Source: Pseudomonas sp. R5(2019) (GTDB lineage: Bacteria; Pseudomonadota; Gammaproteobacteria; Pseudomonadales; Pseudomonadaceae). From it: 64,000 nt of DNA. The notes under the pieces were generated by a model. It saw only the letters and a list, made by a program, of their open reading frames with translations, was not told where the DNA came from and did no database searches. A program made the position numbers and the translations under genes. Positions within the stretch are counted from its first letter, which is position 1. The number at the start of each line of letters is the position of its first letter. Of the stretch, positions 5,292 through 26,675 are shown piece by piece. The DNA lies in the NCBI RefSeq assembly GCF_009905435.1, contig NZ_JAAAMT010000001.1, positions 310,001-374,000 on the forward strand, given 5' to 3'.

Positions 5292-5298
5292 TGCGGGC

Positions 5299-7077: not shown

Positions 7078-7160
7078 GGGGGAAATACCTTGTGGCAAGC
7101 GCTTGTCCGACAATCGGGCCTTGCTACGGCGTTGTTTTCAATCCGGTTACCTGCACATTC

Positions 7161-7184
7161 GCCGCCCTCTGAGCAAAGGGCGGC
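7161..7184. terminator. GC hairpin downstream of the D-malate dehydrogenase gene
   Basis: GCCGCCCT and AGGGCGGC form an 8-bp perfect stem with an 8-base loop, a few bases after the stop at 7197. No T-run follows on the minus strand, so it is a terminator or RNA-processing element of uncertain strength. Confidence 0.45.
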
Positions 7185-7196
7185 TGTGGCCTTGAT

Positions 7197-8276: not shown

Positions 8277-8377
8277 GGTGGCTAACTCTTGAAGGAATAG
8301 TGAGGGTGTGCCCGCCATGGTATAAGGAGGCCGAGCAAACACAATTGCACGAACTATTGATAGAAAAGACACGAAGC

Positions 8378-9280
8378 GTGAATAATCTACCGAATCTAGA
8401 AGACCTTCGCGTCTTCGTCCTGGTTGCCCGCCGCTCCAGTTTTGCGGCGGCGGCCACCGAACTGGGCGCCTCCCCTGCCTTCGTCAGCAAGCGCATTGCG
8501 TTGCTCGAGCAGAGCCTGGGTGTACGTTTATTGCACCGCACTACCCGACGAGTGGCGGCGACCGAAGACGGCGAGCGAGTCTACCGTTGGGCCCTGCACA
8601 TCTTCGATGCAGTGGATCAGATGGGCGACGAGATCTCGTCGTTGCACCAGGAGCCGCGCGGCCAGTTGCACATTGTCAGCAGTTTTGGTCTCGGGCGCCG
8701 GCATGTGGCGCCTGCCCTTTCGGCGCTTTCGGTGCGTTATCCGGCCCTGGATATTCGCTTCGACGTGTTCGATCGACTGGTCGATCTGATCGACGAAGGC
8801 TTCGATCTCGATATCCGCATCGGCGATAACATCGCGCCAAACCTGATCGCCAAGTTGCTGGCCCAGAACGCTCGGATTCTCTGCGCGGCCCCCGAGTATC
8901 TCGCGCGCCACGGCGAACCGCGTAGCCTGGCAGACCTTGCCGGGCATGAGTGCCTGGTGATCAAGGAGCGCGACCACCCCTTCGGTCTCTGGCGCCTGCA
9001 AGGCCCCGACGGCGAAGAAAGCGTCAAGGTAACCGGCGCGCTTTCGGCGAACCATGGCGAGGTGGTCCATCAATGGGGCATCGATGGTCGCGGGATTCTG
9101 CTTCGGTCGCATTGGGATGTGCGCGACAGCCTTGAACGCGGCAAGCTGGTGCATATTCTTCGCGACTATCGCCAGCAGGCCAATATCTGGGCTGTCTATG
9201 CGGCACCGTTGGCCACTTCGGCGAAAATCCGCGTAGCCGTAGAGTTTTTCCGTCAGTATTTCAGTGCGAATCAAAAATAA
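8378..9280 (+). CDS. dmlR: LysR-family regulator, DmlR-like
   Basis: A 300-residue LysR regulator. The winged HTH occupies about residues 5-65 (ARRSSFAAAATELGASPAFVSKRIALLEQ); the rest is the periplasmic-binding-like sensor domain. It is divergent from dmlA with about 100 bases between, the classical LysR arrangement and the same as E. coli dmlR-dmlA. It probably responds to D-malate or a carnitine-derived metabolite. The GTG at 8378 is chosen because it puts the HTH at the usual distance from the N-terminus; the frame is open back to 8264, where it would overlap dmlA. Confidence 0.85.
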   Translation: MNNLPNLEDLRVFVLVARRSSFAAAATELGASPAFVSKRIALLEQSLGVRLLHRTTRRVAATEDGERVYRWALHIFDAVDQMGDEISSLHQEPRGQLHIVSSFGLGRRHVAPALSALSVRYPALDIRFDVFDRLVDLIDEGFDLDIRIGDNIAPNLIAKLLAQNARILCAAPEYLARHGEPRSLADLAGHECLVIKERDHPFGLWRLQGPDGEESVKVTGALSANHGEVVHQWGIDGRGILLRSHWDVRDSLERGKLVHILRDYRQQANIWAVYAAPLATSAKIRVAVEFFRQYFSANQK

Positions 9281-9360
9281 GACGCGGAGCACTGTGGTGG
9301 ACTGGCTGGAAACCCGCGACGATGATTGATTCGCGGCTTTCAAGATCGGCAGGGCTGAAT

Positions 9361-9390
9361 GCAGGCTGCGCCCCGCTGCCGGCAGCCTGC
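9361..9390. terminator. 9-bp hairpin between dmlR and the protease gene
   Basis: GCAGGCTGC (9361-9369) is exactly complementary to GCAGCCTGC (9382-9390). It lies between two convergent genes and could end transcription from both sides. There is no strong T-run on either strand. Confidence 0.4.
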
Positions 9391-9441
9391 AATTGTAGCG
9401 AGCCTCTTTCCGGTCGTCTCGCGTACGACGGATACCGGGTT

Positions 9442-11940: not shown

Positions 11941-12253
11941 GGCCTTGCTCCTCTAATGTGATACCCGTTGTTCGCGTTCGCCTGGGAGGGCAACTTCGTG
12001 TAATCGACCGCGCTCGGCGCCAATATCAGCGGCTTAGGATGATTGAGTCTCCACCACGTCAGATCGCCGACTTTGCCATCCACCACCAACGGCTGGCCGT
12101 GCTGATCCAGATTCTGAGATTGGAAAGCACGTACGGCGCGATCGGTTGCCATGTCGAAGAAGCCACTGCCGGCAACTGGGTAGCCACGTTGGGTAAGGAG
12201 GCGCTGCAGGGTGACGACTTCATCACCTTGGGAATTTTCTTGAGGAGAAGCAT
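11937..12253 (-). pseudogene. peptidoglycan-binding-like small protein with broken or non-standard start
   Basis: In the frame ending at 11937 the residues TLQRLLTQRGYPVAGSG, then FDMATDRAVRAFQ and VDGKVGDLTWWRL, are a good peptidoglycan-binding (PG_binding_1-like) domain. That frame has no ATG, GTG or TTG before a stop near 12296 except an internal ATG at 12152, which would cut the domain. A strong AAGGAG sits nine bases before an ATG at 12253, but that ATG is in another frame. So either a one-base shift has occurred near 12200-12250 or translation starts at a rare codon such as ATT 12260. The stop overlaps the protease ATG, arguing it was, or is, translated with it. Confidence 0.6.
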
Positions 12254-12314
12254 TGGTAATTGCTCCTTTGTAGTTGGCTATGGGTACGATCTGCTAATTG
12301 TGGTCTGTCCCCAT

Positions 12315-12521
12315 TTATTCCGACGAGTTGTTCACCAACAAGTGAATCGCTTTGCTGTTACCCGTTGGTTGAATTTCCACAACCTTTTCCATCTAACTTT
12401 TTGCAATAGCCACCTCGATACGGTCGACAGCCTCCACTTCAATCGACGCTCGCGAAGCCGACATAGACATTGCCGAATTTCCGATGATGTTCAGAGTAAA
12501 TGACCAACTTAGTTGCGCCAT
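12315..12521 (-). pseudogene. stop-interrupted small gene upstream of the protease pair
   Basis: A very good AAGGAG precedes ATG 12521. The frame reads MAQLSWSFTLNIIGNSAMSM... to DRIEVAIAKS, meets TAG at 12393-12395, and continues in the same frame as MEKVVEIQPTGNSK... LLVNNSSE to TAA at 12315. The reading resumes sensibly across the TAG, suggesting one ~67-residue protein split by a nonsense mutation, possibly also cut short at its end. Right after the TAA comes GGGGACAGACCAC, a sequence of the kind seen at ends of some IS200-like/RAYT elements. The family is not firmly recognised. Confidence 0.45.
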
Positions 12522-13095
12522 CGTATACTCCTTACAACCCCAAAATCAGAAAACCTACCGCCCACCCCACCACGACGGTGAAAAATTCGACACCATTAAA
12601 GCGCAACGCGACCACGAGAAAGCTTCGAAACTAAATTCGGATTTAAAACCCAAGTCCAACGCATCTAATTTATGGTGTGGTGACTTATCCGAATTCCACT
12701 CCAGGGTGGAGGCTTATTGAGGATAGATTGGAATCTCATTTTATCAAAAAAACTGCTCACCGCCTGTCGCTAATTAATAGCAAAATTACGACTTACCACA
12801 GGAGCTCTTATAATTATTCACTATCATTAATCCTGACAAGCCACCGCGGCCACTCTGTTAAATTATATATTTCAACGAGATGGGTTGTTAGTTAAATTTT
12901 GTCGTGCCGCTAGTAGCCTGAGCAGTTAATTCATTTATCTACCGGTAACGATAGACTGTGCGTCCAATGCCATGGATTGGTTATGCGCATGGCCCGACCG
13001 ACTTCCCCCTTCGCTCCAACGCCTTCTGATCTCATCACCCTGCAAGTATGAGTACGCTGGAACAGCGCCTTGCCCAGCGAGCGCGCATCCTGCTT
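12522..13095. other. AT-rich intergenic stretch without convincing genes
   Basis: Base composition drops visibly here compared with the flanks, and only short unconvincing frames are present. It looks like an island boundary or decayed sequence between the protease group and the IS remnant. Confidence 0.6.
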
Positions 13096-13215
13096 CTAGG
13101 CTCTGTATGAAAAGTAATGTCGTAAACACCGCATGGCACAAGCCAGCGAGACCATCGCCGCAAAACTTTTCGCGAGCTTGTCGAAGCGTGTGACGATGCG
13201 GCGGTTGCCGGCCCA
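13096..13215 (-). pseudogene. C-terminal remnant of an IS5-family transposase
   Basis: On the minus strand, 13215 to 13096 reads WAGNRRIVTRFDKLAKSFAA followed by MVSLACAMRCLRHYFSYRA and a stop. This is the typical C-terminus of IS5/IS427-group transposases. An in-frame TAG at 13216 marks where the homologous reading ends, so only about 38 residues remain. The terminal AGAGCCTAG region would correspond to the element end. The rest of the element is absent. Confidence 0.7.
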
Positions 13216-13298
13216 CTATTTTGCGGTGGAGGGCTGCTTGCGTAAAAGCGAATATATGTTATACCGACCATTCGAAACTCGAATGGCGAGAAGCGACG

Positions 13299-14168
13299 AT
13301 GCACTCTAAAGACCTTCAGATCGATTGGCTTAGAACATTCCTAGCGGTGGTGGATACGGGCTCCATGACCGCAGCAGCGAGACAGATTTCGCGCTCCCAG
13401 TCAGCCGTGAGCATGCAACTGAAAAAGCTGGAGGAAAGCATTGGACGACCATTACTGATCCGTGAGCCAAAGCAACTCTCATTGACCCCTGCTGGGTATG
13501 ATCTTCTCGGTTACGCACGCAAGGTATTGGAGTGCCACTCCACCCTCTTGGTTGCCATGCATGGGGGATCTGTTTCTGGGCGCGTAACCTTCGGTGTACC
13601 CGACGATTATGCGATTACTTATCTCGCTCCCGTGTTGCGTAGCTTTGCCACGCGCTTCAGTGAAGTCGAGGTAACCCTGGTATGCGAGGAGTCTACCGCG
13701 CTATGGACAAAAGTTGACCGAGGTGAAATCGATCTGGCACTCGTCACGCGTGATGCGCCGTCACGAGGCGAATTACTGTTTAAAGAAGCCTTGGTGTGGG
13801 GTGGTGCTGAGCAGCATCAGGTCTGGAAACGCAACCCTCTACCCATTGCTGTGCACGAACTCGGCGAACGCCTGCGCACTGAAATACTCGCGGCGCTTTC
13901 AACCCAGCAACGTGAATACCGAGTGGTCTACAACAGCCCCAACGTGGTGGGTCAACTGGCGGTGGCAGAGAGCGGCATGGCAGTAGCGGTACTTACTAGA
14001 TGCAGTCTGCCACCCAGTCTGAAAGTGCTGGACGCGCGGCAAGGGCTACCAGAACTACCAGTGGTGGAAGTCGTGCTGATGCGCAGCAAGGATTCGAAGG
14101 GATCCCGTGCTGTGGATGCGATGTATGAACAGGTTGTTCGATCACTCAAAGATCCACTTTGCACGTGA
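13299..14168 (+). CDS. LysR-family regulator
   Basis: A 289-residue LysR protein with an N-terminal winged HTH (DTGSMTAAARQISRSQSAVSMQLKKLE, residues about 18-45) and a sensor domain. ATG 13299 is chosen over 13221 because GCGAGAAG lies just upstream and the HTH then begins near residue 10; the longer form would run into IS debris. It converges on the MFS gene at 14325-15746, with 156 bases holding no evident gene between. Target and inducer are unknown. It does not resemble the other seven LysR proteins here closely, having the ...IREPKQLSLTPAG wing sequence. Confidence 0.8.
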   Translation: MHSKDLQIDWLRTFLAVVDTGSMTAAARQISRSQSAVSMQLKKLEESIGRPLLIREPKQLSLTPAGYDLLGYARKVLECHSTLLVAMHGGSVSGRVTFGVPDDYAITYLAPVLRSFATRFSEVEVTLVCEESTALWTKVDRGEIDLALVTRDAPSRGELLFKEALVWGGAEQHQVWKRNPLPIAVHELGERLRTEILAALSTQQREYRVVYNSPNVVGQLAVAESGMAVAVLTRCSLPPSLKVLDARQGLPELPVVEVVLMRSKDSKGSRAVDAMYEQVVRSLKDPLCT

Positions 14169-14324: not shown

Positions 14325-15746
14325 TTACGTACTCTCCGCTGGTTGAGAAGCCTCAAAAGACTTGGTCTCACCGCTGTTGGTTGTCCTGATAGCAGAAAAC
14401 AGCCCTCCCAAAAGTGCAAACGCGACACCTGCCCCCAGTGCAATGTATGGCCCGCGATCAGGCGAAACGCTGTACGCAAACGATACCAGCACCGCGCCGA
14501 AGGATTGGCCGAGCAATCTTGATAATGCAACGATTGCACTAGCACTACCGCTGCGCTCCAACGGTGCGCTGGAGATCATCATCTTCAGGTTCGGTGCCTG
14601 GTACAAACCGAAGCCGACACCACAAATCATCATTCGCCAAGCGATGTCGAAGAACACTGCTTTCTCGGGCAGCAAGCACAGGGTGAACATCCCCGTCGCG
14701 AGAATCAGCAATCCTGCAGTGCAGAGTGTGCCGGGATTGAATCGATCGGCAAGCATGCCACTTATGATCGCCATGCACGCCACGACCGCTGGCCAAGGTG
14801 TGATAAGCATTCCTGTCATGAAAGGAGTGGCGGACAAGAATGTATGGAACAAGAATGGCAACGCAATGAATGCTACGCCTTGCGTAACGAACGCACAGAT
14901 CGACGTCAGCGAGGAGAAAGCGAAGTTGCGCTGCTTGAACAGATCAATCGCCAGCATAGGGGCGGCATGTTTGCGCTGATGGTACGACAGGGCAACAAAG
15001 CAAACGATCGCGCCTAACAGCTTCAAGAAAGCCAAGGCCGGAAGACCGCCCCGGGCAAATGCAACCAGGCTGAGAATCAGCATGATAAACATGGCGCAGC
15101 ACAATACTGCGCCAATCAAGTCGAATCGGCCTTTCGAGCCCGAAGTGGCCGGGATGTAGCGACGCGAAAGATAAAGGCAGTAGATCCCAACCGGGACGTT
15201 CACCAGGAACAGACAGTGCCAATTGCTCACCGCAAGGATGCCCGCCGCTACAGTCGGGCCGGCGGTGAAAGAAAGACCGACGACCAATGCATAGATCCCC
15301 ATACCGCGACCAAGCTGATTGGCTGGACAGCATCGCTTGATCAACGCAGTCACCACGCTACCAACGGCTGCGCCGCCGATGCCTTGCAGGCACCTGGCTA
15401 CGATCAACCAAGGGAGACTGGTGAAAACGCCGGCGACAAGCGAAGACACCGTAAACAAGACCAGACCGTAGAAAAACATGCGCTTATGGCCGACGATTTC
15501 ACCCAGCGAGGCGAAGGGAAGCAGCAGCCCGATGACCGAAATTTGATACGCGGTCACTAGCCAAATAGCTGTGCTCGCCGTTACACCCAATGCTTCCGAA
15601 ATAGTAGGCAACGCCGTGTTGATCAGGGATAGATCAAGCGTGACCATCGTTGCCGCCATGCATAGAGCCAACATAGCAAGGGTGCTGCTGCGCTCTTTCT
15701 TTGGCTCTGATTGAATCGAGCCAGAGCCCATTTTGCTATTAGACAT
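14325..15746 (-). CDS. MFS drug/metabolite exporter, DHA2 (14-helix) type
   Basis: A 473-residue inner-membrane protein with about fourteen hydrophobic segments. Early MVTLDLSLINTALPTI is the DHA2 (EmrB/QacA) signature region; GEIVGHKRMF is the loop 2-3 motif and CLQGIGGAAVGS lies in helix 4. Such proteins are proton-driven exporters of drugs or small metabolites. It is divergent from the alpha/beta hydrolase gene, 148 bases apart, and the shared region carries the 31-bp element at 15847-15877. It may export a product or a toxic substrate of the neighbouring amino-acid module, which is inference only. Confidence 0.85.
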   Translation of the reverse strand: MSNSKMGSGSIQSEPKKERSSTLAMLALCMAATMVTLDLSLINTALPTISEALGVTASTAIWLVTAYQISVIGLLLPFASLGEIVGHKRMFFYGLVLFTVSSLVAGVFTSLPWLIVARCLQGIGGAAVGSVVTALIKRCCPANQLGRGMGIYALVVGLSFTAGPTVAAGILAVSNWHCLFLVNVPVGIYCLYLSRRYIPATSGSKGRFDLIGAVLCCAMFIMLILSLVAFARGGLPALAFLKLLGAIVCFVALSYHQRKHAAPMLAIDLFKQRNFAFSSLTSICAFVTQGVAFIALPFLFHTFLSATPFMTGMLITPWPAVVACMAIISGMLADRFNPGTLCTAGLLILATGMFTLCLLPEKAVFFDIAWRMMICGVGFGLYQAPNLKMMISSAPLERSGSASAIVALSRLLGQSFGAVLVSFAYSVSPDRGPYIALGAGVAFALLGGLFSAIRTTNSGETKSFEASQPAEST

Positions 15747-15846
15747 CCGTTAACCTTCAGGTAAATAATTTGCCATTAATACAGCTCGACCATATATTGT
15801 TATTTTGTGTAGTATTAAAAACCTCTACTTGGCGTCGCAACTCTAT

Positions 15847-15877
15847 TTTTGTATATCGCCATTCACTGGATAAATAG
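15847..15877. promoter_or_regulatory. 31-bp element shared with 19321-19351
   Basis: It begins TTTTGTATATCGC and ends AAATAG. Of 31 positions, 24 are identical to 19321-19351, with the first 13 perfect. It lies 18 bases before the hydrolase ATG. It is a probable regulator site, possibly for the LysR protein encoded at 16633-17523. Confidence 0.55.
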
Positions 15878-15894
15878 ATAATCAAAGGGGTAAC

Positions 15895-16605
15895 ATGAAG
15901 CAGGCCAATATCGTTCTCATTCCAGGTTTCATGCTTAGCGAAGACCTCTGGACTGACATTATTCCTCTGCTACCCAATCAGTTAATCATCCATCACGCTC
16001 CTTTGATAGGTAACTCAATTTCCGAAATGGCGCTTGAAACCCTGAAAAGAGCTCCAGAACATTTCGTGTTGTGTGGTTTTTCGATGGGTGGTTACGTTGC
16101 AAGAGAAATTGTCCGTCTAGCACCGGAACGCGTTATAGGGCTAATCATTATTGCCAGCTCAAGCCGTGCGGAAAGCTCAGAACAAATTGCCCAAAAAAAG
16201 GCAAGCGTAGCGCAGATTCTTAACCGCGAGTTTGTTGGCCTGAGCCGTTCGGTCATTGCCAAGGGGTTTAGTCCGGACAATCGCAAAAACCAGCAGCTCA
16301 TCGAGCGTGTCCAAACAATGAGCAGGACGCTTGGCAAGGCAGCCTTCATCGCACAATCTCAAGCTATACGGCATGATGAATCCCACCTCCTAAGAATCGA
16401 TAAAACTCCAACCCTTGTAATTGCAGCCGAACTTGATGAATTGCGACCCATCGAGGAGTCCAGAGAACTTGTGGCGCAACTACCGGATGCCAAATTTGTA
16501 TGCATTTCCGATAGCGGACACATGATCCCACTCGAACAACCAATCATCCTTGCAAAAAACATAACCGACTGGTGCAACGAACTGATTGATCAAGCAACTA
16601 TCTGA
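15895..16605 (+). CDS. alpha/beta hydrolase
   Basis: A 236-residue single-domain alpha/beta hydrolase. The nucleophile elbow GFSMGG is near residue 63, the acid is in AAELDELRP near residue 182, and the His is in DSGHMIPLEQP near residue 207. The oxyanion region is LIPGFMLSEDLW. Length and motifs fit small esterases or amidases such as BioH-like and MhpC-like proteins; the substrate cannot be read from sequence. GGGG is six to seven bases before the ATG. It is convergent with the LysR gene at 16633. Confidence 0.8.
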   Translation: MKQANIVLIPGFMLSEDLWTDIIPLLPNQLIIHHAPLIGNSISEMALETLKRAPEHFVLCGFSMGGYVAREIVRLAPERVIGLIIIASSSRAESSEQIAQKKASVAQILNREFVGLSRSVIAKGFSPDNRKNQQLIERVQTMSRTLGKAAFIAQSQAIRHDESHLLRIDKTPTLVIAAELDELRPIEESRELVAQLPDAKFVCISDSGHMIPLEQPIILAKNITDWCNELIDQATI

Positions 16606-16632
16606 ACTTGGCTAACCGGTCAGCTACGCACG

Positions 16633-17523
16633 TCAACACTGTTTGATCAGCTCCCTCAACCAGGCATGCGCGGCAGTATTTTTGTTGCGCTTATGCCAGT
16701 ACAGATCCCAACTAAAGGAAGGCATGCTCAGCGGAAGTTCCTTGATAACAAGCGTCTTATCAACGAAGGTATTTGCAAGCTTTTCCGAAATGACAGAGAT
16801 CATATCTGTCTCACACAAGATCGCAGGCAAAGCAAGCCAATGAGGGATCGTCAGCGTAATTCGTCTAGAAAGCTGCTGCTCTGCGAGTACATTGTCCACA
16901 AACCGGACATCATGCTGACTGACTGCCACATGTAGATGGTTAGCATTGAGAAAACTCTCCATGGTCAATTCAGCATCTGATAGGGGATGCCTACTCCGCA
17001 TGACACAGACCAGCCTATCCATAAACAATGGCTCGCTCACGATGTTAGAGGAATGCTTAAGCTGGGTACTGATTGCGAAGTCCAATTGATCACTTTCCAA
17101 CCGAGCAAGGGTAAGGTCAATGGGGATGTGCGTGATGTCCATGCGCATACCGGGCGCCTGCTCAGAAAGGTGCCTAAAAAGCTTAGGCAATACCAAGTAG
17201 GTGATCAGATCCGACATGCGCCCGGTGAAATGATCTGCGCTTAAGGCCGGCTCGAACAACACTTCAGACGTCATCAGTCTTTCGGCTTCACGCAGGATCC
17301 TGGTGACACCGACGCTTAGCTCGATGGCCCGTGCGGTTGGCTCCATGCTGCCGCCAACACGTATGAACAGGTCATCCTTGAACAAAAGCCGTAGGCGAGA
17401 CAACGCGCTACTCATGGCTGGCTGGCTCATAGGCACTTTGAGAGCAGCACGCGTGACGTGTCGCTCCTTCATCAAGGTATCGAAGATAACCAGAAGATTA
17501 AGATCTACTGCTCGCAGGTTCAT
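16633..17523 (-). CDS. LysR-family regulator (NodD/PcpR-like group)
   Basis: A 296-residue LysR protein. The N-terminal MNLRAVDLNLLVIFDTLMKERHVTRAA and SQPAMSSALSRLR sequences are typical of the NodD/LinR/PcpR subgroup, which often controls catabolic operons from sites upstream. ATG 17523 is preferred to 17538 because GGAG precedes it by six bases. It is followed upstream by the aminotransferase gene on the same strand, 171 bases away. Given the shared 31-bp element on both sides of it, it is the best candidate regulator of the 14-25 kb module. Confidence 0.8.
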   Translation of the reverse strand: MNLRAVDLNLLVIFDTLMKERHVTRAALKVPMSQPAMSSALSRLRLLFKDDLFIRVGGSMEPTARAIELSVGVTRILREAERLMTSEVLFEPALSADHFTGRMSDLITYLVLPKLFRHLSEQAPGMRMDITHIPIDLTLARLESDQLDFAISTQLKHSSNIVSEPLFMDRLVCVMRSRHPLSDAELTMESFLNANHLHVAVSQHDVRFVDNVLAEQQLSRRITLTIPHWLALPAILCETDMISVISEKLANTFVDKTLVIKELPLSMPSFSWDLYWHKRNKNTAAHAWLRELIKQC

Positions 17524-17694
17524 GTCCGCTCCAGCCATTCACTTAGGAGAAAAAGCCAACCTAAAAAAGCACTAGGTGGTGCCTAAACAGGACAGAATAG
17601 TTTCGCGATCGCACATGCGTATCGCGACGTGATACGGGCCGTGACAAATGTTGTTCCCGCCGCAGCCCATGGCGGGCTACCTACGGAAGTACGC

Positions 17695-19014
17695 TCACTC
17701 AATAAATCCAGATGCAGCCGCAATGGCACTCAAGCGATCAAATGCCGCCTTGGCGACACAGATTGAGATGACGTCCAGCGCAGTCGTTAGCTCGGCCATC
17801 TCTGGGTATGAGGGAGCAATACGAAGCTGAGAATCGCGCTCGTCAACTCCATACGGGAAGCAAGATCCAGGAGTCGCAAATTTAACGCCCGCCTGAGCGG
17901 CAAGATCAACGACGCGCTTGGCCGTTCCTGGAAGCACCTCAAGGCTTACGAAGTAACCGCCACGAGGACGACTCCATTGCGCTACGCCGTAGTCGCCGAG
18001 CATCCGACTGAACACCTCATGAACTCGCTCGAACTTCGGCTGCAGCATCTGCCGATGCTGCTCCATGAGTTCCTTGATCTTTTCCGGCGACCGCAAGAAA
18101 CGAACCTGTCTGAGTTGGTTCACCTTGTCCGGGCCAACGCTTCGTAGTGCTGCAGCTTTCAGCCACCAGGCGGTGTTGTCCTTTGAGCTGGCAAGCAGCG
18201 CTATGCCACCTCCGGGCAATGTCATCTTCGAAGTTGAGGCGAAGATCAGCGGACGATTGGAGTGACCGTGCCGAGCTGCCTGCATGTAGATATTTTCGAG
18301 CGAGTCGTCCACCTCCGCCAAGGGGTGAACAACGTAGGCGTTATCCCAGAAAATGCGAAAGTCTTTAGCTGCCGTCGGCATGGCTGCCAGCGCCTCGACG
18401 ACTTCTTTCGAGTAAGTGGTGCCGGTCGGATTACTATATTTCGGCACGCACCAGATGCCTTTGATGCTGCTGTCGTTAGCCACCAGGCGCTTAACCAGTC
18501 CCATGTCAGGCCCGTCGTCGAGCATTGGCACCGAGATCATCCGGACGCCAAAGTCCTCGCACATCGCAAAATGCCTGTCGTAGCCTGGGGTCACGCAGAT
18601 AAACGAGATACCACCTGGCTCTTGTGACCATGCACATTCACTGTCTGGTGTCCCGTGGCGCCATGCTTGGGCTAGACATTCATACATGAGCGCTAGGCTG
18701 GAATTCCCCCCCACAACGATCTGCTCTTCTGGCACACCCACTATCGGTGAGAACAAGCGCCGCGCCTCCAGAAGCCCCTGTTGACCGCCGTAATTCCGGC
18801 TGTCGGTACCGTCCTCGCTCAGATAGTCGCTTGCAAGCGATACATCCAAAAGCGCCGTCGAAAGGCCAATCTGTTGAGGTGACGGAATGCCTCGTGTCAT
18901 GTCGATCTTCAGACCCATCTTGGAGTACCGCAAATACTCCACATCAGCACCAGACTTCAGGCGGTTTAGATCGTCACGAGCAATTTTCAAAGCAGAATCC
19001 ACCACGTTCATCAT
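17695..19014 (-). CDS. class I PLP aminotransferase (subgroup Ic aspartate-aminotransferase-like)
   Basis: A 439-residue fold-type I aminotransferase. The PLP lysine lies in STSKMTLPGGG near residue 279; CVPKYSNPTG and IFWDNAYVVH are the cofactor Asn and Asp regions. Features such as the TRGIPSPQQIGLS start and NYGGQQGLLEAR match the group of aspartate-aminotransferase-like proteins found in actinobacteria and proteobacteria (sometimes called Ic). Substrate is uncertain. It sits divergently, 744 bases away, from the diaminopropionate ammonia-lyase gene and could supply or use its amino acids. The first two codons are both ATG; either may start it. Confidence 0.85.
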   Translation of the reverse strand: MMNVVDSALKIARDDLNRLKSGADVEYLRYSKMGLKIDMTRGIPSPQQIGLSTALLDVSLASDYLSEDGTDSRNYGGQQGLLEARRLFSPIVGVPEEQIVVGGNSSLALMYECLAQAWRHGTPDSECAWSQEPGGISFICVTPGYDRHFAMCEDFGVRMISVPMLDDGPDMGLVKRLVANDSSIKGIWCVPKYSNPTGTTYSKEVVEALAAMPTAAKDFRIFWDNAYVVHPLAEVDDSLENIYMQAARHGHSNRPLIFASTSKMTLPGGGIALLASSKDNTAWWLKAAALRSVGPDKVNQLRQVRFLRSPEKIKELMEQHRQMLQPKFERVHEVFSRMLGDYGVAQWSRPRGGYFVSLEVLPGTAKRVVDLAAQAGVKFATPGSCFPYGVDERDSQLRIAPSYPEMAELTTALDVISICVAKAAFDRLSAIAAASGFIE

Positions 19015-19758
19015 GAATCTTCAAAAATACAAGCCAAGCAATTAGACAGACGCCTGCTGCGGCTACCTTTGGCAAGAGCAGCTCATTTGAAAGAAAGGGC
19101 ACGCCATCGCAGCAAGGTGTATTGCCAACCAGGGATACAGGATTTTTCGACGCGCCACCCACTGGTGGCAAGCCCGACGCAGGCACGCTTGAGTGTGCTG
19201 GTTGCTGCCAGAAGGCCAGGCGCATAAAAGTTCGCGCGTCGTCTTGTTAGGTCATGGCGTGAGCATAGTTTCTTAATTGCGATCAATATCCCTGACTGAC
19301 GAAAATCCATCCAATGGATATTTTGTATATCGCTATTGATGAAACAAATAGTCTTACTGAATGCTCCCAGTGCTCGCAAGCCCCACCTATGCCAATCAAA
19401 GTCAACACCGCTGAATGCCGATAAATGAACAGACCCTAAGGAATTAACCAACTTTAATCCCATATTCGTATATTTTCACACTCTTTCCATGCTGCATCGC
19501 CTCCATCATTTACCAAATGGATTGCACCATATCTAAAAACGATTTGAATGATAATTCCTCGTCTGTGAAAGTCGAGAAACGGGCCGACTGACTCGTCCCA
19601 ATGAACTGTGATGTGCTCGATCTAGTTCCACCAGAAGGCAAAGCCAATATTGCACGATTCGCATTTGGCAGGTGGCGAGCACGCGGTACATACCGATGCA
19701 AACGCACCTATAAAGCTAGCCCCACCCAAACAAGATCAAAGTACAGAGGATCATCTGA
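19015..19758. other. 744-base divergent intergenic region
   Basis: No convincing gene. It holds the 31-bp element at 19321-19351, directly preceded by the dyad ATCCAT-CCA-ATGGAT at 19305-19319. The size is unusual for a divergent promoter region and may include decayed sequence. Confidence 0.55.
19305..19351. promoter_or_regulatory. palindrome plus second copy of the 31-bp element
   Basis: ATCCAT (19305-19310) and ATGGAT (19314-19319) form a perfect dyad around CCA. The element at 19321-19351 repeats the one at 15847-15877 (24 of 31 identical). The location between the aminotransferase and the ammonia-lyase suggests control of one or both. Confidence 0.55.
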
Positions 19759-20997
19759 ATGCAATCTGAATATCTGCATTATCGCTCCACAGTAAACACT
19801 CTTCCCGAAAAACGTCAGAACGCGCAAACCGCAGTCGATAACTTAAAGAACTGGCAGTCAGCTGTTCAGGAAGTTACACAATGGCCCGGCTATGAAGTTC
19901 TGCCCTTGTGGTCACTGGACAACCAAGCGAAGAAATTAGGCTTCGGCAAAATCTTCTATAAAGACGAAAGCCAACGCTTTGGGCGCAAGCTGGGCAGCTT
20001 TAAAGCGCTGGGGGCGCCTTACACTGTCTTCATGTTGCTGGCAGATGCCGTTGAAAAGGCCACCGGCGCCCGACCGAGTGCGGCCCAGTTGCGCACTGGT
20101 GAGTTCAAGAAAATCACCGAACGCGTCACCGTCTGCGTCGCAACGGACGGTAACCAAGGTCGCGGGTTGGCTCACGCCGCCGCCACGTTCCACTGCCGCT
20201 GCGTGGTTTACATTCATGGACATGTCAGTCCTGGCCGCAAGGAAGCAATGGAAGCCTACGGCGCCATTGTCATCCGCATTGACGGTGAGTACGAAGCCTC
20301 CGTCAAACGCGCGAAAGAAGATGGGCGTATGAACGGCTGGCATTTTGTAAGCAGCACTTCATGGGCGGACTTTGAAGAACCGCTTCCACGCCATGTCATG
20401 AACGCCTATATGGTGATGGTTGAAGAAGCCATGGCCGCTGTGCCTGACCTTTCAAAGATCACGCACGTATTCATGCAAGGTGGCGTGGGAAGTATTGCTG
20501 CCGCAGTTTTCCTGGGTATCGCGCTGCGCTTGGGTGAACAGAACCTGCCTCGGTTTGTCATGGTTGAGCCAAGCGAAGCCGATTGCCTTTATCAAAGCGC
20601 TTCGATCGGTGTACCAACTCCCTCCTCCGGCACCTTGCATACGACTATGGCGGGCTTGGCCTGTCGCGAGGTCTCGCCGGCTGCATGGAAGTTGCTGGAG
20701 TGGCTCTGCACTGACTACGTAGCCATTCCTGATGCCTGGGCAGTTGATGCCATGAAGGCGCTCGCCGACGGCAACAACGACACCCCAATTGTTTGCGGTG
20801 AGTCGGCCGCTGGTGGTTACGCAACCGTGCTCAAGGCAGCTGCAGACATGGAGCTGAAAGCGAAACTCGGTCTGGACGAGAACAGCCAGATCTTGCTTTT
20901 TGGCTGTGAAGGCGCGACCGATCCGGAAATCTACCAGAAACTGGTAGGCGTTTCCGCCACGGAAGTGTTTGAACGCCAGAAGCAGTCCGCGCTGTGA
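19759..20997 (+). CDS. dpaL: diaminopropionate ammonia-lyase
   Basis: A 412-residue fold-type II PLP enzyme. YKDESQRFG at 67-75 and Lys82 in GSFKALGAP mark the cofactor site, ATDGNQGRGLAHAA binds the phosphate or substrate, and MQGGVGSIA is the glycine-rich loop. These match YgeX/DpaL, which turns 2,3-diaminopropionate (either isomer) and D-serine to pyruvate and ammonia through an aminoacrylate intermediate. AGAGG lies eight bases before the ATG. A RidA-family gene follows 55 bases downstream, which fits because RidA proteins deaminate such enamines. Length is normal for the family. Confidence 0.92.
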   Translation: MQSEYLHYRSTVNTLPEKRQNAQTAVDNLKNWQSAVQEVTQWPGYEVLPLWSLDNQAKKLGFGKIFYKDESQRFGRKLGSFKALGAPYTVFMLLADAVEKATGARPSAAQLRTGEFKKITERVTVCVATDGNQGRGLAHAAATFHCRCVVYIHGHVSPGRKEAMEAYGAIVIRIDGEYEASVKRAKEDGRMNGWHFVSSTSWADFEEPLPRHVMNAYMVMVEEAMAAVPDLSKITHVFMQGGVGSIAAAVFLGIALRLGEQNLPRFVMVEPSEADCLYQSASIGVPTPSSGTLHTTMAGLACREVSPAAWKLLEWLCTDYVAIPDAWAVDAMKALADGNNDTPIVCGESAAGGYATVLKAAADMELKAKLGLDENSQILLFGCEGATDPEIYQKLVGVSATEVFERQKQSAL

Positions 20998-21052
20998 GGC
21001 GATGAGTTTACGCAAGCGACGTTACTATTGAGCAGCAGATTGAAGGTTACCC

Positions 21053-21535
21053 ATGCAATCGAATGAACGCGATATCAAGCTAGCAGAGCTGGCGTCGACT
21101 TTTGGCTTGGACGTCCAAGAAAATCCAGTTTCTGGCGGCCTGTATGAGCCGGTGACCATCGACGGAAATTCACTGTATCTCAGTGGCCAGATACCAAAAA
21201 TTGGCGACGCGGTGACTCACCCCGGCAAGGTTGGTCAGGACTTATCCCTGGGCGATGCGAAGACCGCCGCCGCCCTTTGCGCGCTGCGCGCGGCGATCGT
21301 ACTCAAGCATTCGCTTGGCTCGCTTGCGGCAGTAGAAAAGATCCTACGGATCAACGTGTTCGTTCAAGGTGCCGACGGCTTTTCACAACAAACCCAAGTA
21401 GCGGATGGTGCGTCGGAGCTACTGCGTAACCTGTTTGGTGAGGCTGCAGGTCACGCACGTACCTCCGTCGGCGTCGCAGGGCTCCCAAGAAATGCTGCAG
21501 TAGAACTGGACATGATTGCTGTCAGAAAGCGGTAG
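21053..21535 (+). CDS. RidA/YjgF-family enamine deaminase
   Basis: A 160-residue RidA-family protein of the longer YjgF-like type. ARTSVGVAGLPRNAAVELDMIAV near the C-terminus is the conserved Arg and Glu region that hydrolyses 2-aminoacrylate-type enamines to keto acids. Following dpaL by 55 bases, it probably clears the reactive aminoacrylate released by that enzyme. GAAGG lies before the ATG. No odd features. Confidence 0.88.
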   Translation: MQSNERDIKLAELASTFGLDVQENPVSGGLYEPVTIDGNSLYLSGQIPKIGDAVTHPGKVGQDLSLGDAKTAAALCALRAAIVLKHSLGSLAAVEKILRINVFVQGADGFSQQTQVADGASELLRNLFGEAAGHARTSVGVAGLPRNAAVELDMIAVRKR

Positions 21536-21664
21536 CTGACTCCCAATAACAAAACACAGGGGCGGCGGTTGCGTGAAACGGTAAGGATACTCTCTAGTAG
21601 TTGCCTTTGCTGCGCCACAGTACCCGCCCTCCCAGCCCAGTCTCATTGAGCCAAAGGCAACCCG

Positions 21665-23032
21665 GTGAAACCCGTGCAAACAAATACTCAGTCTGATTTC
21701 ATCTCACCAGATGACCTACGCGCAATTTTTTCCCAAAAGATGTCTGATATGTACAAGGCCGAGGTGTTGCAATACTCAACCCTCCTGAGCATTGTCGCTG
21801 ACGTCAACGAGAACACGCTTAATCAACACGATGAACTGCGCGCCGCATTGAGCCGAACAAATGATCTCAATCGGCTAACCCAGGAATATCACGGCGCAAT
21901 CAGGCTCGGCACCGCCCAGGAACTCGCTACCCTGCGACGGATGTTCCACGTATTGGGTATGTTGCCGGTCGACTACTACGATCTAAGCGTCGCTGGCGTG
22001 CCAGTACATGCGACTGCATTCCGCCCCGTCTCGAACGAATCGCTGGCAAAGAACCCTTTCCGAGTTTTTACTTCTCTTCTGCGCCTAGAACTGATCGACA
22101 ATCTGGAACTACGTGCCACAGCTGAACGGATTTTATCCGGCAGGAATATTTTCACAGGTAACGCAATTGAGTTGCTTGAACTGGCTGAGCAACAAGGTGG
22201 CCTATCGTCCGTAGAAGGAGCTGAGTTCGTTTCCGAGCTGATCGAAACGTTCAGGTGGCACAGCGAAGCCACCGTAGATGCGCAGACCTTTGACCGTCTA
22301 CAGGATGCTCATCGCCTGGTGGCTGACGTGGTGTGTTTCCGTGGCCCGCATATCAACCATCTCACACCTAGAACGCTGGACATCGACCAAGCCCAGGCGG
22401 AGATGCCTAAGCGTGGCGTACAAGCGAAGCAACTAATTGAAGGGCCACCCCGGCGCAACGTCCCCATCCTTCTCCGCCAGACGAGCTTCAAGGCGCTTGA
22501 AGAACGTATTCGCTTCGTAGCAGACTGCGACGGTGCGCACACTGCCCGCTTTGGTGAGATTGAACAGCGAGGTTCTGCCCTAACGCCCAAGGGCATGGCG
22601 CTCTATGACGAACTGCTCAGCGAAGCTCGCCGTGCGATCGGTGCAGAAGCTGTCTCTTATGAAAACAATCTAAAGGCAGTTTTTAAAAAATTCCCCGATA
22701 GCCTTGAAGACATGCGGATCCAGGAACTGGCGTATTTTAAATATTCCGCTGGCCCGGGATACCAACCGGAGCACGCCAAGCTGCTGCCACTGGAAGATCT
22801 AATCAGCAAAGGGTTGGTACTTGCCGATCCGATCATTTACGAAGATTTTCTTCCTGTCAGTGCCGCCGGAATCTTCCAGTCCAACCTTGGTGGAACAGAA
22901 CAAAAAGAGTTCGCCTCGAACGCGGCTAAAGACAATTTCGAGCGTGCTCTTGGCTCTTCCGTACTAGACAAATTCCAACTGTACGAGCACAGCCAACGAG
23001 AGTCCCTCGCCAAGCTGGGCTTGGCCCTCTGA
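21665..23032 (+). CDS. HglS-type 2-oxoacid dioxygenase/decarboxylase (DUF1338)
   Basis: A 455-residue member of the VOC-like DUF1338 family (HglS/YdcJ). HglS of P. putida converts 2-oxoadipate to D-2-hydroxyglutarate in lysine breakdown. Equivalent residues are visible: His76 and Arg80 in HGAIRLG, His232 in INHLTPRTLDID, and Glu300 in FGEIEQRG, so metal and substrate sites look intact. The start is GTG 21665 with AAGG upstream. In this island there are no other lysine genes, so the true substrate may be a different 2-oxo acid made by the aminotransferase; this is inference. A second chromosomal HglS may exist outside the window. Confidence 0.85.
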   Translation: MKPVQTNTQSDFISPDDLRAIFSQKMSDMYKAEVLQYSTLLSIVADVNENTLNQHDELRAALSRTNDLNRLTQEYHGAIRLGTAQELATLRRMFHVLGMLPVDYYDLSVAGVPVHATAFRPVSNESLAKNPFRVFTSLLRLELIDNLELRATAERILSGRNIFTGNAIELLELAEQQGGLSSVEGAEFVSELIETFRWHSEATVDAQTFDRLQDAHRLVADVVCFRGPHINHLTPRTLDIDQAQAEMPKRGVQAKQLIEGPPRRNVPILLRQTSFKALEERIRFVADCDGAHTARFGEIEQRGSALTPKGMALYDELLSEARRAIGAEAVSYENNLKAVFKKFPDSLEDMRIQELAYFKYSAGPGYQPEHAKLLPLEDLISKGLVLADPIIYEDFLPVSAAGIFQSNLGGTEQKEFASNAAKDNFERALGSSVLDKFQLYEHSQRESLAKLGLAL

Positions 23033-23061
23033 CCTGACGTCAGTACCGCCACACAGTTGGA

Positions 23062-23143
23062 GTGAGGGGTATGGCGTGCAGACCGATCGATCTACTCTCT
23101 GGCCCAAGAGGGTAAATGATCGGTGCCTCCGCCATACCCTCAC
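23062..23143 (+). terminator. long two-tier hairpin downstream of the HglS-type gene
   Basis: Outer arms GTGAGGGGTATGGCG (23062-23076) and CGCCATACCCTCAC (23130-23143) pair with one bulged G. Inner arms ACCGATC (23082-23088) and GATCGGT (23118-23124) also pair. It lies 30 bases after the stop. It could be a terminator, a stabilising 3' structure or an IS-end relic. Confidence 0.5.
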
Positions 23144-23432
23144 CTTCACCAGGCTGACCAGTCGTCGCTACTCGGTCAACCGTTAGGGCCTTGGCGCTGC
23201 GTTCGGCAACGCGTTATTGATCGTATGGATAGCGGCATAGAGATTAGCGATTGTACTTCGCAGCATCCGATGATGGATGCTGAGCCGAACAAGCTATTTG
23301 CCAACAGCTATTGTCGTACCACAGACAAATTAACTACGAGCCTGCGGCTCGCGGCAAACAATAACAACGAGCGCAAACCCTACTTCAAAGTCCTGCCATC
23401 GGAATAAATCAACAATCAGACAGGCGGTAACA

Positions 23433-23549
23433 ATGATTGGATATTACTCGCGCAATGGGGAAGACAACCTCCTCTACATCCAATCAGAGAAATCACTTAA
23501 AGAGATCCGATGTCCCTACTCATTGAGACAGGCCAAGGATGCCAAATAA
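23433..23549 (+). CDS. possible 38-residue small protein
   Basis: ATG 23433 is preceded by AGGCGG at good distance and opens a 38-codon frame (MIGYYSRNGEDN ... RQAKDAK) ending at TAA 23549. No family is recognised; it may be a real small protein, a gene remnant or chance. It stands alone in the ~600-base region between the HglS-type gene and the symporter gene, which otherwise shows only the long hairpin. Confidence 0.25.
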   Translation: MIGYYSRNGEDNLLYIQSEKSLKEIRCPYSLRQAKDAK

Positions 23550-23649
23550 GACACTTTCAAACAGCGTTGCGAGAATAACTTCGCTAAAAAACAAAACAGG
23601 CATCCAAAAATAGATGGCGATAAACGCCACCGACACTTATAGGCAAATT

Positions 23650-24975
23650 ATGAATAAGCTCATTGTCCGCTTTATATTAATAGCCATGGTACTCGGTATT
23701 GTACTGGGCGCTGGCGTGCACCACACCGTGACTGACGCAAAAGTTCTGGCTGACATATCAGGATACCTGTCTATTGGGACTGATGTGTTTATGCGTCTGA
23801 TCAAGATGATCATCGGCCCTCTTGTCTTCGCCACATTAGTCCCTGGACTGTCACGTATTGGCGACTCAAGTGACATTGGCAGGGTGGGAGCCAAGGCCAT
23901 GGCCTGGTTCATCAGCGCGTCCTTCATCTCGCTGTTACTTGGGATGCTGCTGGCCAACCTAATGCAGCCAGGCGTCGGTATGAATTTGTCGTTACCAGCA
24001 CCCGACGCTCAAAGCGGCCTAAACACTGCTGCCTTCTCGTTGAAGGACTTCATCACCCATCTGGTACCACGATCGATCGCCGAAGCGATGGCGCAAAACG
24101 AGATCCTGCAAATCGTGGTGTTCTCGATCTTCTGCGGGACTGCCTTAGCTGTCATCGGTTCGAAAGGTGAGCCGGTTGTTGTGCTAATCGAATCCATCTC
24201 CCACATGATGCTGAAGATCACCGAGTTCGTAATGTGGCTTGCACCGCTGGCAGTATTTACAGCCGTTGCCAACATCATTGCGCTTAAGGGATTGGGGATT
24301 GTTGTCACCTTTGCAAAATTCATCGGCTGCTTCTACTTGGGAATCATCACCCTTTGGATCTTGCTGATTTTCGCGGGATATCTAGTACTTGGTCGTCGGG
24401 TCTTTGAGCTCATCCGCACGGTAAAAGGGCCATTTCTGCTGTCTTTCTTCACCGCGAGCTCCGAGGCATCTTTTCCTCAACTGCTGGTGTGTCTGGATAA
24501 ATTTGGCGTCAAACGCAAGATCTCCGGGTTCGTCTTGCCCCTGGGCTACTCGTTCAACCTTGATGGCACGATGGTCTATTGCACCTTCACCGTCTTGTTC
24601 ATTGCTCAAGCCTATGGCATCGATATGCCACTGACCACGCAGCTGGGCATGCTGTTGATGTTGATGGTGACGTCGAAGGGCATTGCCGGTGTACCAAGGG
24701 CATCGCTCATTGTGATTGCGGCAACATTGACTCACTTTGGATTGCCTGAGGAAGGCATTCTTTTAGTGATGGCGATCGACACCTTCCTGGACATGGGCCG
24801 GTCAGCAACGAACTCGGTTGGCAACTCCATCGCATGTGCGGTCATAGCGAAGTGGGAAGGTGCCCTGCAGTCATCGAAAGAAGCAGAGGCCGAAATGGAA
24901 GCGACCAATCTTTCGTTGAAAGCCGCAAAGCCTGAATACGTTACGCTGGAACGCGAGGATGCAATAAGAACATAG
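23650..24975 (+). CDS. dicarboxylate/amino acid:cation symporter (DAACS family)
   Basis: A 441-residue inner-membrane symporter of the DctA/GltP family. It has about eight hydrophobic helices plus re-entrant loops; FFTASSEASFPQL is the serine-rich loop, FNLDGTMVYCTF the conserved NxDG region, and MDMGRS/TNSVGN near residue 385-395 binds substrate. It would import a dicarboxylate, glutamate/aspartate or a related amino acid for the neighbouring enzymes. Start ATG 23650 is favoured by similarity to DctA-like N-termini (MNKLIVRF); ATG 23614 in frame is an alternative. It is the last gene of the amino-acid island. Confidence 0.88.
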   Translation: MNKLIVRFILIAMVLGIVLGAGVHHTVTDAKVLADISGYLSIGTDVFMRLIKMIIGPLVFATLVPGLSRIGDSSDIGRVGAKAMAWFISASFISLLLGMLLANLMQPGVGMNLSLPAPDAQSGLNTAAFSLKDFITHLVPRSIAEAMAQNEILQIVVFSIFCGTALAVIGSKGEPVVVLIESISHMMLKITEFVMWLAPLAVFTAVANIIALKGLGIVVTFAKFIGCFYLGIITLWILLIFAGYLVLGRRVFELIRTVKGPFLLSFFTASSEASFPQLLVCLDKFGVKRKISGFVLPLGYSFNLDGTMVYCTFTVLFIAQAYGIDMPLTTQLGMLLMLMVTSKGIAGVPRASLIVIAATLTHFGLPEEGILLVMAIDTFLDMGRSATNSVGNSIACAVIAKWEGALQSSKEAEAEMEATNLSLKAAKPEYVTLEREDAIRT

Positions 24976-25176
24976 CCAGATCAGGATGGATCTATCGTCA
25001 GATCTCCCGGGGCGACATGGAAAGTCGCCTACGCAACACAAGCGAGTCATATAGATGCCTCGCTGTTCCCCACAAGCCGGTTGCCGGCATATATTTTGAA
25101 TCGCTAAATCCCCTCCTCCGCAATTCATCGCCCTCCCCCTCAGAAACTGTGTCTTCGCCTGTCAAACACACCTTGA

Positions 25177-25332
<156 letters not shown>

Positions 25333-25427
25333 TGATTTAAACCTAGACGATAGCAATCGACTTGCACTGCCCGCCCTCACCATTACCGGCCTCTTCTCTG
25401 CCACCACCGCTATCCACCTTTTTCACC

Positions 25428-26675
25428 TCAGAAAAGCTTCCAGGTGTAAGTGGCGATCAAACGGTTTTCATCAAACTCGGCGCCGTAGCGTGCCTGTGTT
25501 TCGATGTGCCGCATCTCCAGCGCCACCCCTTTTAACGGGCCGTGCTGTACCACGTAGCTGATGTTGAAATTGCGCTCGCTTTCTACGTTGTCTTGCAGGT
25601 TGGCGCCGCGATCGATGTCAGTGCCGCGCAGGTAGCGCACCATCATCTTCAGGCCAGGCATTCCCATGGCGGCGAAGTCGTAATCGTAGCGGGCTTGCCA
25701 GGAGCGCTCCTCGGCCTTGTAGAAGCCCAGCGTCGACCAGTTGACCAGGTAGGGCTGCGGGACATAACCGTTGAGGAGCGGGTACGCGTCATCGCCATAC
25801 ATACGCTGGTAGCCCAGGGTGTACGTGCTCGCGCCTTTGCGCAGCGCGCTCATCAGGCCCAGGGAACGGTTGTCCAGACGGCCGGACAGCTCGCTTCCAT
25901 CTTCACTGTTGTGGAAGTAGCGAACATCGTTCTTGAGGCTAAAGCCATTGCCCAGGTCCAGCGTCTGCGCCAGTGCAACGTAATGTTGTCGGTAGATATC
26001 CTCCAACTGGCCGAAATACCAGGTGCCATTCAAGGTCGGCGTGAACTCGTACCGCACACCCGCAAAGTTGAGCCCGTCACTGTGTTGCGACGGGCTATCG
26101 CCAAACAGGAAAATATCTTCCTTGTTGGAGGATTCCCGAGTGGCAATCTTCCAGAATCTGCCGGCGTTGAGGGTCAGTTTGTCCCATTCCCTGGACTCGA
26201 CCGTGGCGCCCTCATAGGTGGTCATCAACTGCCTGGAGTCATCGATGTAGGCCACCGGCAATGTCGGCCGTTGTTCTCCGACCCGCAGTTCGGTCCTGGA
26301 AACCCTGACTTTGCCGGTCACTCCCGAGCGGCCATAGTCGCGCACCGGCTCGCCTTTGCTTCGGTCGTAAGGCAACACGCTGTCAGGACTTCGGCCGCCG
26401 CCGCCATCGAGGCGATAGGCGAACTGGCTGAAGGTGTCCAGGCCAAACTGGACCGGGCCATCGGTGTAGCCCGACCGGTAGATCAGATCGAAACCCTGAC
26501 TCCAGCTGCCGACCCTGGATTTGGGCGCGTCCTTTTGTTTGAAGTCTCGATCGACATAGAAATTGCGCAAGCCCAAGGTCAGTTGACTGCCCTCCACGAA
26601 GTCAGCGCGTACGCCGGGGCTCAGAGAGAGGGTTATCAGTGCGCCCAAGGCACCAATGCGTACGGATGCAATCAT
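25428..26675 (-). CDS. OprD-family outer-membrane porin
   Basis: A 415-residue OprD-type porin. The N-terminal MIASVRIGALGALITLSLSPGVRADF is a signal peptide (cleavage likely after VRA), followed by DFVEGSQLTLGLRNFYVDRDF, the usual OprD start, and many beta-strand repeats ending in Phe (TYTWKLF). Members such as BenF and PhaK admit aromatic acids. It lies downstream of the AAHS transporter on the same strand, so it likely admits mandelate or benzoylformate. The leader carries AAAAACAACAATAAG, an Hfq/Crc-type motif. Confidence 0.9.
   Translation of the reverse strand: MIASVRIGALGALITLSLSPGVRADFVEGSQLTLGLRNFYVDRDFKQKDAPKSRVGSWSQGFDLIYRSGYTDGPVQFGLDTFSQFAYRLDGGGGRSPDSVLPYDRSKGEPVRDYGRSGVTGKVRVSRTELRVGEQRPTLPVAYIDDSRQLMTTYEGATVESREWDKLTLNAGRFWKIATRESSNKEDIFLFGDSPSQHSDGLNFAGVRYEFTPTLNGTWYFGQLEDIYRQHYVALAQTLDLGNGFSLKNDVRYFHNSEDGSELSGRLDNRSLGLMSALRKGASTYTLGYQRMYGDDAYPLLNGYVPQPYLVNWSTLGFYKAEERSWQARYDYDFAAMGMPGLKMMVRYLRGTDIDRGANLQDNVESERNFNISYVVQHGPLKGVALEMRHIETQARYGAEFDENRLIATYTWKLF

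Follow-up and report, generated by a model that had tools for sequence, protein, structure and literature searches.

The closest described relatives of the locus treated here include three systems. HglS of Pseudomonas putida, a 2-oxoadipate dioxygenase/decarboxylase from the AmaA/AmaB neighbourhood, carries out a step of D-lysine catabolism; it was active on 2-oxoadipate alone among seven 2-oxo acids, its R74A variant lost activity, and the accessible part of the same report ties the family to lysine breakdown and expects members keeping the conserved arginine to use 2-oxoadipate (PMC7286885). The 2,3-diaminopropionate ammonia-lyase (DpaL; YgeX, solved as 4d9g and 5ygr) is a pyridoxal phosphate (PLP) enzyme. 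The Rid1 proteins PA0814 and ACIAD3089 have imine deaminase activity on several larger imines, and the Rid1 proteins tested deaminate 2-aminoacrylate (PMC5619798, accessible part). We analysed a window, that is, a whole stretch of 64 kb (G000:C1:310001-374000) in the 6.0-Mb genome of Pseudomonas sp. R5(2019), in which a modified DpaL-like lyase, a Rid protein and HglS adjoin within an eight-gene module at 14325-24975. The eight-gene set is a real co-inherited unit and is rare in the genus; tentatively, we suggest that it serves the breakdown of an acidic amino acid.

Each of the eight genes is an open frame with a family assignment (open reading frame (ORF) list, Pfam and NCBIfam scans). They are given below in their order along the window, together with two copies of an operator-like element.

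14325..15746, minus strand: exporter of the major facilitator superfamily (MFS), DHA2/EmrB-like (PF07690/MFS_1, 149.5 bits, cut-off 33.4)
15847..15863, plus strand: operator-like element TTTTGTATATCGCCATT in the divergent MFS/hydrolase intergenic region, 0 mismatches
15895..16605, plus strand: small alpha/beta-hydrolase (alpha/beta-hydrolase family, 48.2 bits, cut-off 25.8)
16633..17538, minus strand: LysR-type regulator, BsrA/LeuO-like (PF03466 and PF00126; under the cut-offs of the BsrA and LeuO models)
17695..19014, minus strand: aspartate aminotransferase type Ic (NF053594, 569.6 bits, above the cut-off of 435)
19321..19337, plus strand: operator-like element TTTTGTATATCGCTATT in the divergent aminotransferase/DpaL intergenic region, 0 mismatches
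19759..20997, plus strand: DpaL-like PLP lyase with altered motifs (R76 insertion, Q133, S199, R303; NF006058)
21053..21535, plus strand: Rid-family deaminase (PF14588, 60.5 bits, cut-off 35)
21665..23032, plus strand: HglS, 2-oxoadipate dioxygenase/decarboxylase (NF049974, 667.7 bits, above the cut-off of 550)
23614..24975, plus strand: SDF-family symporter (363.5 bits, cut-off 27.9) with the amino-acid-type motif DxxxDxxR

A first-pass annotation of this DNA, made from the letters alone, had listed these genes as an unassigned amino-acid catabolic module. All the genes that it named are present at 14325-24975 as open frames with family assignments; the LysR gene at 16633-17538 was missing from its title.

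The lyase was followed through 84,980 species, each represented by one genome; the search used two peptide patterns and an alignment of three module lyases, so that relatives can be missed. Five relatives with at least 63% identity were found, in P. rhodesiae, Pseudomonas sp. GM84, P. lurida, Variovorax sp. CF079 and an Acidobacteria metagenome-assembled genome (MAG). Conservation across genomes, which the first-pass annotation had offered as a check, was borne out: the same eight genes stand together in all four Pseudomonas genomes found with this type of lyase, that of the window included. In P. rhodesiae a contig end divides the module, and the tail of HglS opens a second contig, ahead of the symporter. 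The units have a different arrangement in P. lurida, so that inheritance of a single intact stretch does not by itself account for the company of the genes. Variovorax CF079 has lyase, Rid and HglS, an MFS gene, an SDR gene and a hydrolase, with polar-amino-acid-type ABC transporter genes upstream; neither the aminotransferase nor the symporter had a match on its 11.7-kb contig. The DpaL-like, Rid and HglS genes adjoin in the same order in all five HglS-bearing loci found. The window's exporter is 91% identical to its module counterpart in P. rhodesiae, 76% in GM84 and 69% in P. lurida, and its symporter is 94%, 85% and 82% identical, respectively. The hydrolase is likewise retained in the four Pseudomonas modules and has a 39% counterpart in Variovorax CF079.

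The rarity of the module is seen in the genus and class searches, which are samples of genomes. This lyase type occurred in 4 of 398 Pseudomonas genomes (E <= 1e-100). HglS of the window type (at least 64% identity) was present in 3 of 249 genomes of the genus, as against some HglS in 198 of the 249 among the best matches listed. Hydrolase matches (E <= 1e-30) were found in eight of the 249, at 53-100% in three module genomes and at 46% or less in the other five, and symporter matches (E <= 1e-150) in ten, at 82-100% in three module genomes and at 59-61% in the other seven. In the Pseudomonas genomes without this lyase type, the neighbourhoods of the symporter and hydrolase homologues were other contexts that did not name the substrate. 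In the class sample the lyase matched in 12 of 369 genomes (E <= 1e-60), none exceeding 48% identity besides the window's own.

The module genes are probably co-regulated. When the spacer between aminotransferase and lyase was aligned in three species, a single conserved block stood out amid poor conservation; its core, TTTTGTATAYCGCYATT, recurs between exporter and hydrolase. The elements at 15847 and 19321 are the only two matches with at most 3 mismatches in the 64 kb, compared with a chance mean of 0.15 and no case of two matches in 100 shuffles, a test that is partly circular because the pattern was drawn from the sites themselves. P. rhodesiae has the element exactly at both sites, and GM84 has it exactly on the lyase side and with 3 mismatches on the hydrolase side. 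In P. lurida, where aminotransferase and lyase lie in the same orientation, the elements upstream of the aminotransferase and between exporter and hydrolase have 3 mismatches each, and a third match falls inside the exporter gene. As a control, the loci remaining without module loci and module duplicates gave 2 matches in 86 loci (559,792 bases). There was no match in the Variovorax or Acidobacteria MAG loci. The LysR protein encoded at 16633..17538, present in all four Pseudomonas modules, is the probable regulator of the module. A generic promoter scan showed no excess (7 found, 9.0 expected), and terminators numbered 18 against 13.1 expected. The ORF at 19083-19463 had no family in Pfam, NCBIfam or PHROGs and was taken as no gene.

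The genome of the window contains two HglS genes. The other one (contig C45) adjoins an L-pipecolate oxidase (AmaA; 744.4 bits, cut-off 600) and an L-piperidine-6-carboxylate (P6C) dehydrogenase (833.6 bits, cut-off 730), and it therefore belongs with the lysine pathway. In contrast, neither of these enzymes was among the ten window ORFs scanned at 14325-26675, and the module HglS is instead preceded by the PLP lyase and Rid. The suggestion of a catabolic module without lysine genes thus stands, as a co-inherited set distinct from the lysine pathway, and the simpler possibility that its HglS is the sole lysine-pathway HglS of the genome does not hold. Each of the five genomes with an HglS-bearing module had at least two HglS-family matches. 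We found no description of the module, which is built of known enzyme families, in the literature searched; besides PMC7286885, nothing of use was found there on HglS or on a DpaL/Rid/HglS operon.

In a tree of 28 HglS rows, which sampled 12 of the 27 canonical-type Pseudomonas loci (L006-L032) and included one P. rhodesiae row truncated at a contig end, the four Pseudomonas module copies formed one clade (100/98). The Variovorax module copy clustered with the other HglS of its own genome (100/99); it and the E. coli rows are long branches. A single clade for all five module copies was rejected (p-AU 0.0004) in a test that was run after a first tree had been seen. With two lineages of module HglS in the tree, HglS joined the lyase-Rid unit, or was replaced in it, at least two times.

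The module HglS is of the same family as the D-lysine enzyme and was compared with it at residues for catalysis and substrate binding. The assignment of the metal-binding His and Glu is presumed here. The His-His-Glu metal positions (triad: PMC7286885, accessible part) were kept in 28 of 28 rows, both candidate Glu included, and so were the equivalents, placed by alignment, of Arg74, Val402 and Ser403, which hold 2-oxoadipate in the P. putida enzyme according to the same source; the five module copies share all of them. Tyr replaces Arg next to the first metal His in the four Pseudomonas module copies, and in these four rows only.

Other HglS-type genes were met in different settings. A short HGLS-family protein occurred in 22 of 249 genus genomes (E <= 1e-40), and several of these (e.g. 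G020, G022 and G044) had no long-HglS match among the best matches listed, as if one replaces the other. On a plasmid of Variovorax sp. SRS16 (L063), an HglS-type gene adjoins a valine--tRNA ligase gene (presumably an extra copy), an amidohydrolase and aminotransferases, a neighbourhood that suggests the handling of a toxic amino-acid analogue. On a plasmid of Variovorax paradoxus VAI-C (L045), an HglS-type gene lies amid two gamma-glutamyltransferases, aminotransferases, an FAD oxidoreductase and electron-transfer flavoprotein genes.

The lyase was compared in 21 sequences, namely the six of the module clade (Acidobacteria included) and 15 others (E. coli YgeX, 11 class-sample loci and 3 of 235 plasmid records); a Bosea copy in two pieces (L071) and the L094 copy stood outside this comparison. 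Four sites within conserved motifs separated the two groups strictly, all six clade members having a state found in none of the 15 others. With the E. coli number first, Asp189 is changed to Ser199, His123 to Gln133 and Gly292 to Arg303, and a 2-residue insertion that brings Arg76 precedes GSFK82, six and five residues ahead of the PLP lysine. The motifs of the clade read RxLGSFK, TDGNQG, SSTSW and LACRE. Asp189, which we take to act in the active site, is kept in all 15 other DpaLs. The equivalents of Lys77 (the PLP lysine) and Asp120, both presumably catalytic, are found in all 21 rows, so that the module lyase shares the PLP family of YgeX and departs from it in the positions named. The strict DpaL model TIGR03528 was not reached (270.4 bits, cut-off 532.25). 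The module also has no hydantoinase- or carbamoyl-type genes, unlike E. coli ygeX or a Rhizobium daejeonense copy. The loss of Asp189 and the gain of two arginines point to an acidic side chain; the changes would fit a substrate with an extra carboxylate and would speak against diaminopropionate with its second amino group. It follows as a warning that genes called diaminopropionate ammonia-lyase may include some whose products do not use diaminopropionate. BhcB-type beta-hydroxyaspartate dehydratases remove a beta-hydroxyl from an acidic amino acid, and the module lyase would resemble them if it does the same; however, it matched the BhcB model NF045641 only weakly (31.8 bits, cut-off 550), and the substrate proposed for it is a C6, not a C4, acid.

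A DpaL-like gene accompanies a gamma-glutamyltransferase and a TauE/SafE exporter on plasmids of both Klebsiella (IncR, L072) and Bosea vaviloviae (L071); in Bosea it is broken into two pieces and has a RidA-family gene nearby. At L094:7613-15038 (genome G083), a 61% relative of the symporter lies about 5 kb from an ordinary-type DpaL relative (42%), with Alpha-E and ATP-grasp genes between them.

The Rid protein is closest to the solved Rid1 proteins ACIAD3089 and PA0814 (best matches 9bkb and 9bk9), from which it differs in its genetic link to the lyase and HglS. It keeps the Arg in HARTSVGV when aligned with 9bkb and 9bk9, and we read this alignment as placing the Arg at the equivalent of RidA Arg105. 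The symporter retains the Asp/Asp/Arg positions when aligned with the solved aspartate transporter 9bgz, and these are assumed to form the substrate motif as in GltPh. It stays under the curated cut-offs for GltP (302.9 against 638) and DctA (339.4 against 513). Its first 12 codons may be noncoding, with the true start at the ATG at 23650: in both P. rhodesiae and P. lurida the matching stretch is interrupted by a stop, and in P. rhodesiae the frame opens at the next ATG. The best curated models for the hydrolase are 3-oxoadipate enol-lactonases, at a distance (PcaDC 82.8 bits, cut-off 390; PcaD 74.1 bits, cut-off 255.85), and among solved chains it comes closest to a predicted hydrolase and an esterase (7dq9, 75.7 bits; 4uhc, 75.3 bits). 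The aminotransferase at 17695..19014 is the second copy in the genome; the other, at G000:C78, is 57% identical.

In P. rhodesiae, the module symporter is followed (L096:3374-8114) by an Asp/Glu-type racemase, a second Rid, a Glu/Asp-type binding protein just below its model's cut-off, a short HGLS-family protein (351 aa, 96.6 bits to PF07063) and a LysR gene. Here a Rid and an HGLS-family gene are paired for a second time in the company of acidic-amino-acid genes, and in this genome alone; none of 11 further short-HGLS loci of about 4 kb matched its racemase, Rid or binding protein.

Considering these results together, we favour, with a rough probability of 0.42, the reading that the module was acquired, is controlled by LysR and serves the catabolism of an acidic alpha-amino acid via 2-oxoadipate and HglS. 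The G+C content of 14325-24975 is 52.4%, as against 58.6% in 1-13000 and 58.9% in 25428-64000, which would fit acquired DNA. The reactions, the flow between them and the substrate are those that we infer. Judged by its motif, the symporter would import the acidic amino acid. The DpaL-like lyase, retuned for a distal carboxylate, would take a beta-substituent (OH, NH2 or similar) off a 2-aminoadipate-type acid to give an enamine/imine, and the Rid1-type protein would hydrolyse the imine to the 2-oxo acid, 2-oxoadipate. The dedicated HglS would then convert 2-oxoadipate by oxidative decarboxylation to 2-hydroxyglutarate for central metabolism. The aminotransferase may interconvert a 2-aminoadipate-like acid and 2-oxoadipate. 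As guesses, the hydrolase would open a lactone or ester precursor, and the MFS protein would export excess substrate or a toxic analogue. The first-pass annotation had divided the enzymes into two half-pathways, DpaL with RidA and the aminotransferase with HglS. The conserved DpaL-Rid-HglS order suggests instead one linear route ending in HglS, and the lyase-Rid-HglS chain is the most economical one, with three adjacent genes in order and no new chemistry needed.

A narrower form of this proposal is, in our estimate, rather doubtful. Here lyase and Rid would make 2-oxoadipate directly from 3-hydroxy- or 3-amino-2-aminoadipate, the PcaD-like hydrolase perhaps opening the gamma-lactone; the module would be a second entry to HglS outside lysine catabolism, for an acidic natural product met by Pseudomonas and Variovorax. 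Because it is linked to a modified DpaL and Rid, and this in two lineages, a second HglS would exemplify 2-oxoadipate (or a close analogue) coming from another source compound. The small gene set, the one likely regulator and the short enzyme list make the source compound findable.

Several observations weigh against catabolism of an acidic amino acid through 2-oxoadipate in an acquired module. No natural 3-substituted 2-aminoadipate was found in the literature searched, where the accessible part of PMC9963897 merely names diaminoadipic as a pathway. The lyase exceeds the cut-off of the general DpaL model NF006058 (392.5 bits, cut-off 276). To our knowledge, no natural substrate of the proposed 3-substituted 2-aminoadipate type is known. 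That the two gained arginines line the lyase pocket is inferred from motifs; the AlphaFold model of the lyase was left unused, with pLDDT below 50 at 191-209 and 273-306, the key loops. The Tyr-for-Arg change could mean that the substrate of the Pseudomonas module HglS has shifted. Rid1 proteins were inactive on iminoarginine in the accessible part of PMC5619798 and so have a limited range. The aminotransferase had no match on the 11.7-kb contig of Variovorax CF079. The Acidobacteria MAG, with the same lyase type, had no HglS match in its genome, and the 10 kb to each side of its lyase contained none of the module genes. As for acquisition, none of 235 lyase matches and none of 77 HglS matches in plasmid records reached 60% identity, and no empty insertion site was found in flank searches of 38 genomes.

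In the main rival scheme, the module would act on a beta-hetero-substituted isostere of 2-aminoadipate, such as oxalyl-diaminopropionate or S-carboxymethylcysteine. Aminoacrylate would be released from it by the lyase, Rid would yield pyruvate, and the aminotransferase and HglS would treat the transaminated isostere in parallel. One acidic substrate would then account for lyase, Rid, aminotransferase and HglS, its chain length would meet the need of HglS, and both the arginines gained by the lyase and the acidic-type symporter motif speak for it. However, HglS was inactive on six other 2-oxo acids, a panel that did not extend to hetero-isosteres (PMC7286885, accessible part), the core-set family calls include no oxalate- or thiol-handling enzyme, and the gene order suggests a linear route. 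We consider this two-branch scheme unlikely.

Degradation of diaminopropionate or D-serine to pyruvate by lyase and Rid, which the first-pass annotation had put forward, would leave the HglS part as a separate neighbouring 2-aminoadipate branch. This is improbable. The score of the lyase above the general DpaL cut-off is in its favour, as is the deamination of 2-aminoacrylate by the Rid1 proteins tested (PMC5619798, accessible part), but the strict model is not reached, Asp189 is lost and two arginines are gained across the whole lyase clade, and two HglS lineages are tied to the lyase. The further thought of a siderophore fragment found no counterpart: the ten ORFs scanned at 14325-26675 include no siderophore family, and a reading as a diaminopropionate siderophore was dropped.

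We give still less weight to a cluster devoted to producing, exporting or resisting a toxic amino acid instead of feeding on one. A DHA2-type exporter gene is indeed present in all four Pseudomonas copies; however, no condensing or activating enzyme is among the families found in the module, and the import-type symporter, Rid and HglS are degradative types. A duplicate of the lysine pathway among coincidental neighbours is very improbable, although HglS serves lysine breakdown (as cited at the outset) and an aminotransferase step precedes HglS there, because the same gene set occurs in four species, one with a rearranged order, it is the C45 HglS that has AmaA and P6C dehydrogenase beside it, and the module has the shared operator-like element.

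At the borders of the module, the right-flank OprD gene had no long match above 70% DNA identity outside the window's genome and a match of any kind in 22 of the 38 genomes, its own included; the left-flank stretch matched in 1 of the 38, the window's own. A minus-strand frame within 13050-13330, at the left edge of the AT-richer stretch, resembles what we take to be an IS5-type transposase remnant. A further feature lies near this edge.

13221..14168, plus strand: second LysR regulator, possibly linked to the module (in P. rhodesiae and P. lurida, a copy of 83-85% identity lies no more than about 3 kb from the module)

No counterpart of this second LysR was found near the GM84 module. A 76-77% copy stands immediately upstream of a hydrolase homologue in two genomes without this lyase type (G021 and G130). 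At L037:16208-20350 in GM84, another LysR gene is flanked by an MFS gene and a CoA-transferase family III gene; it shares 59% identity with the module LysR.

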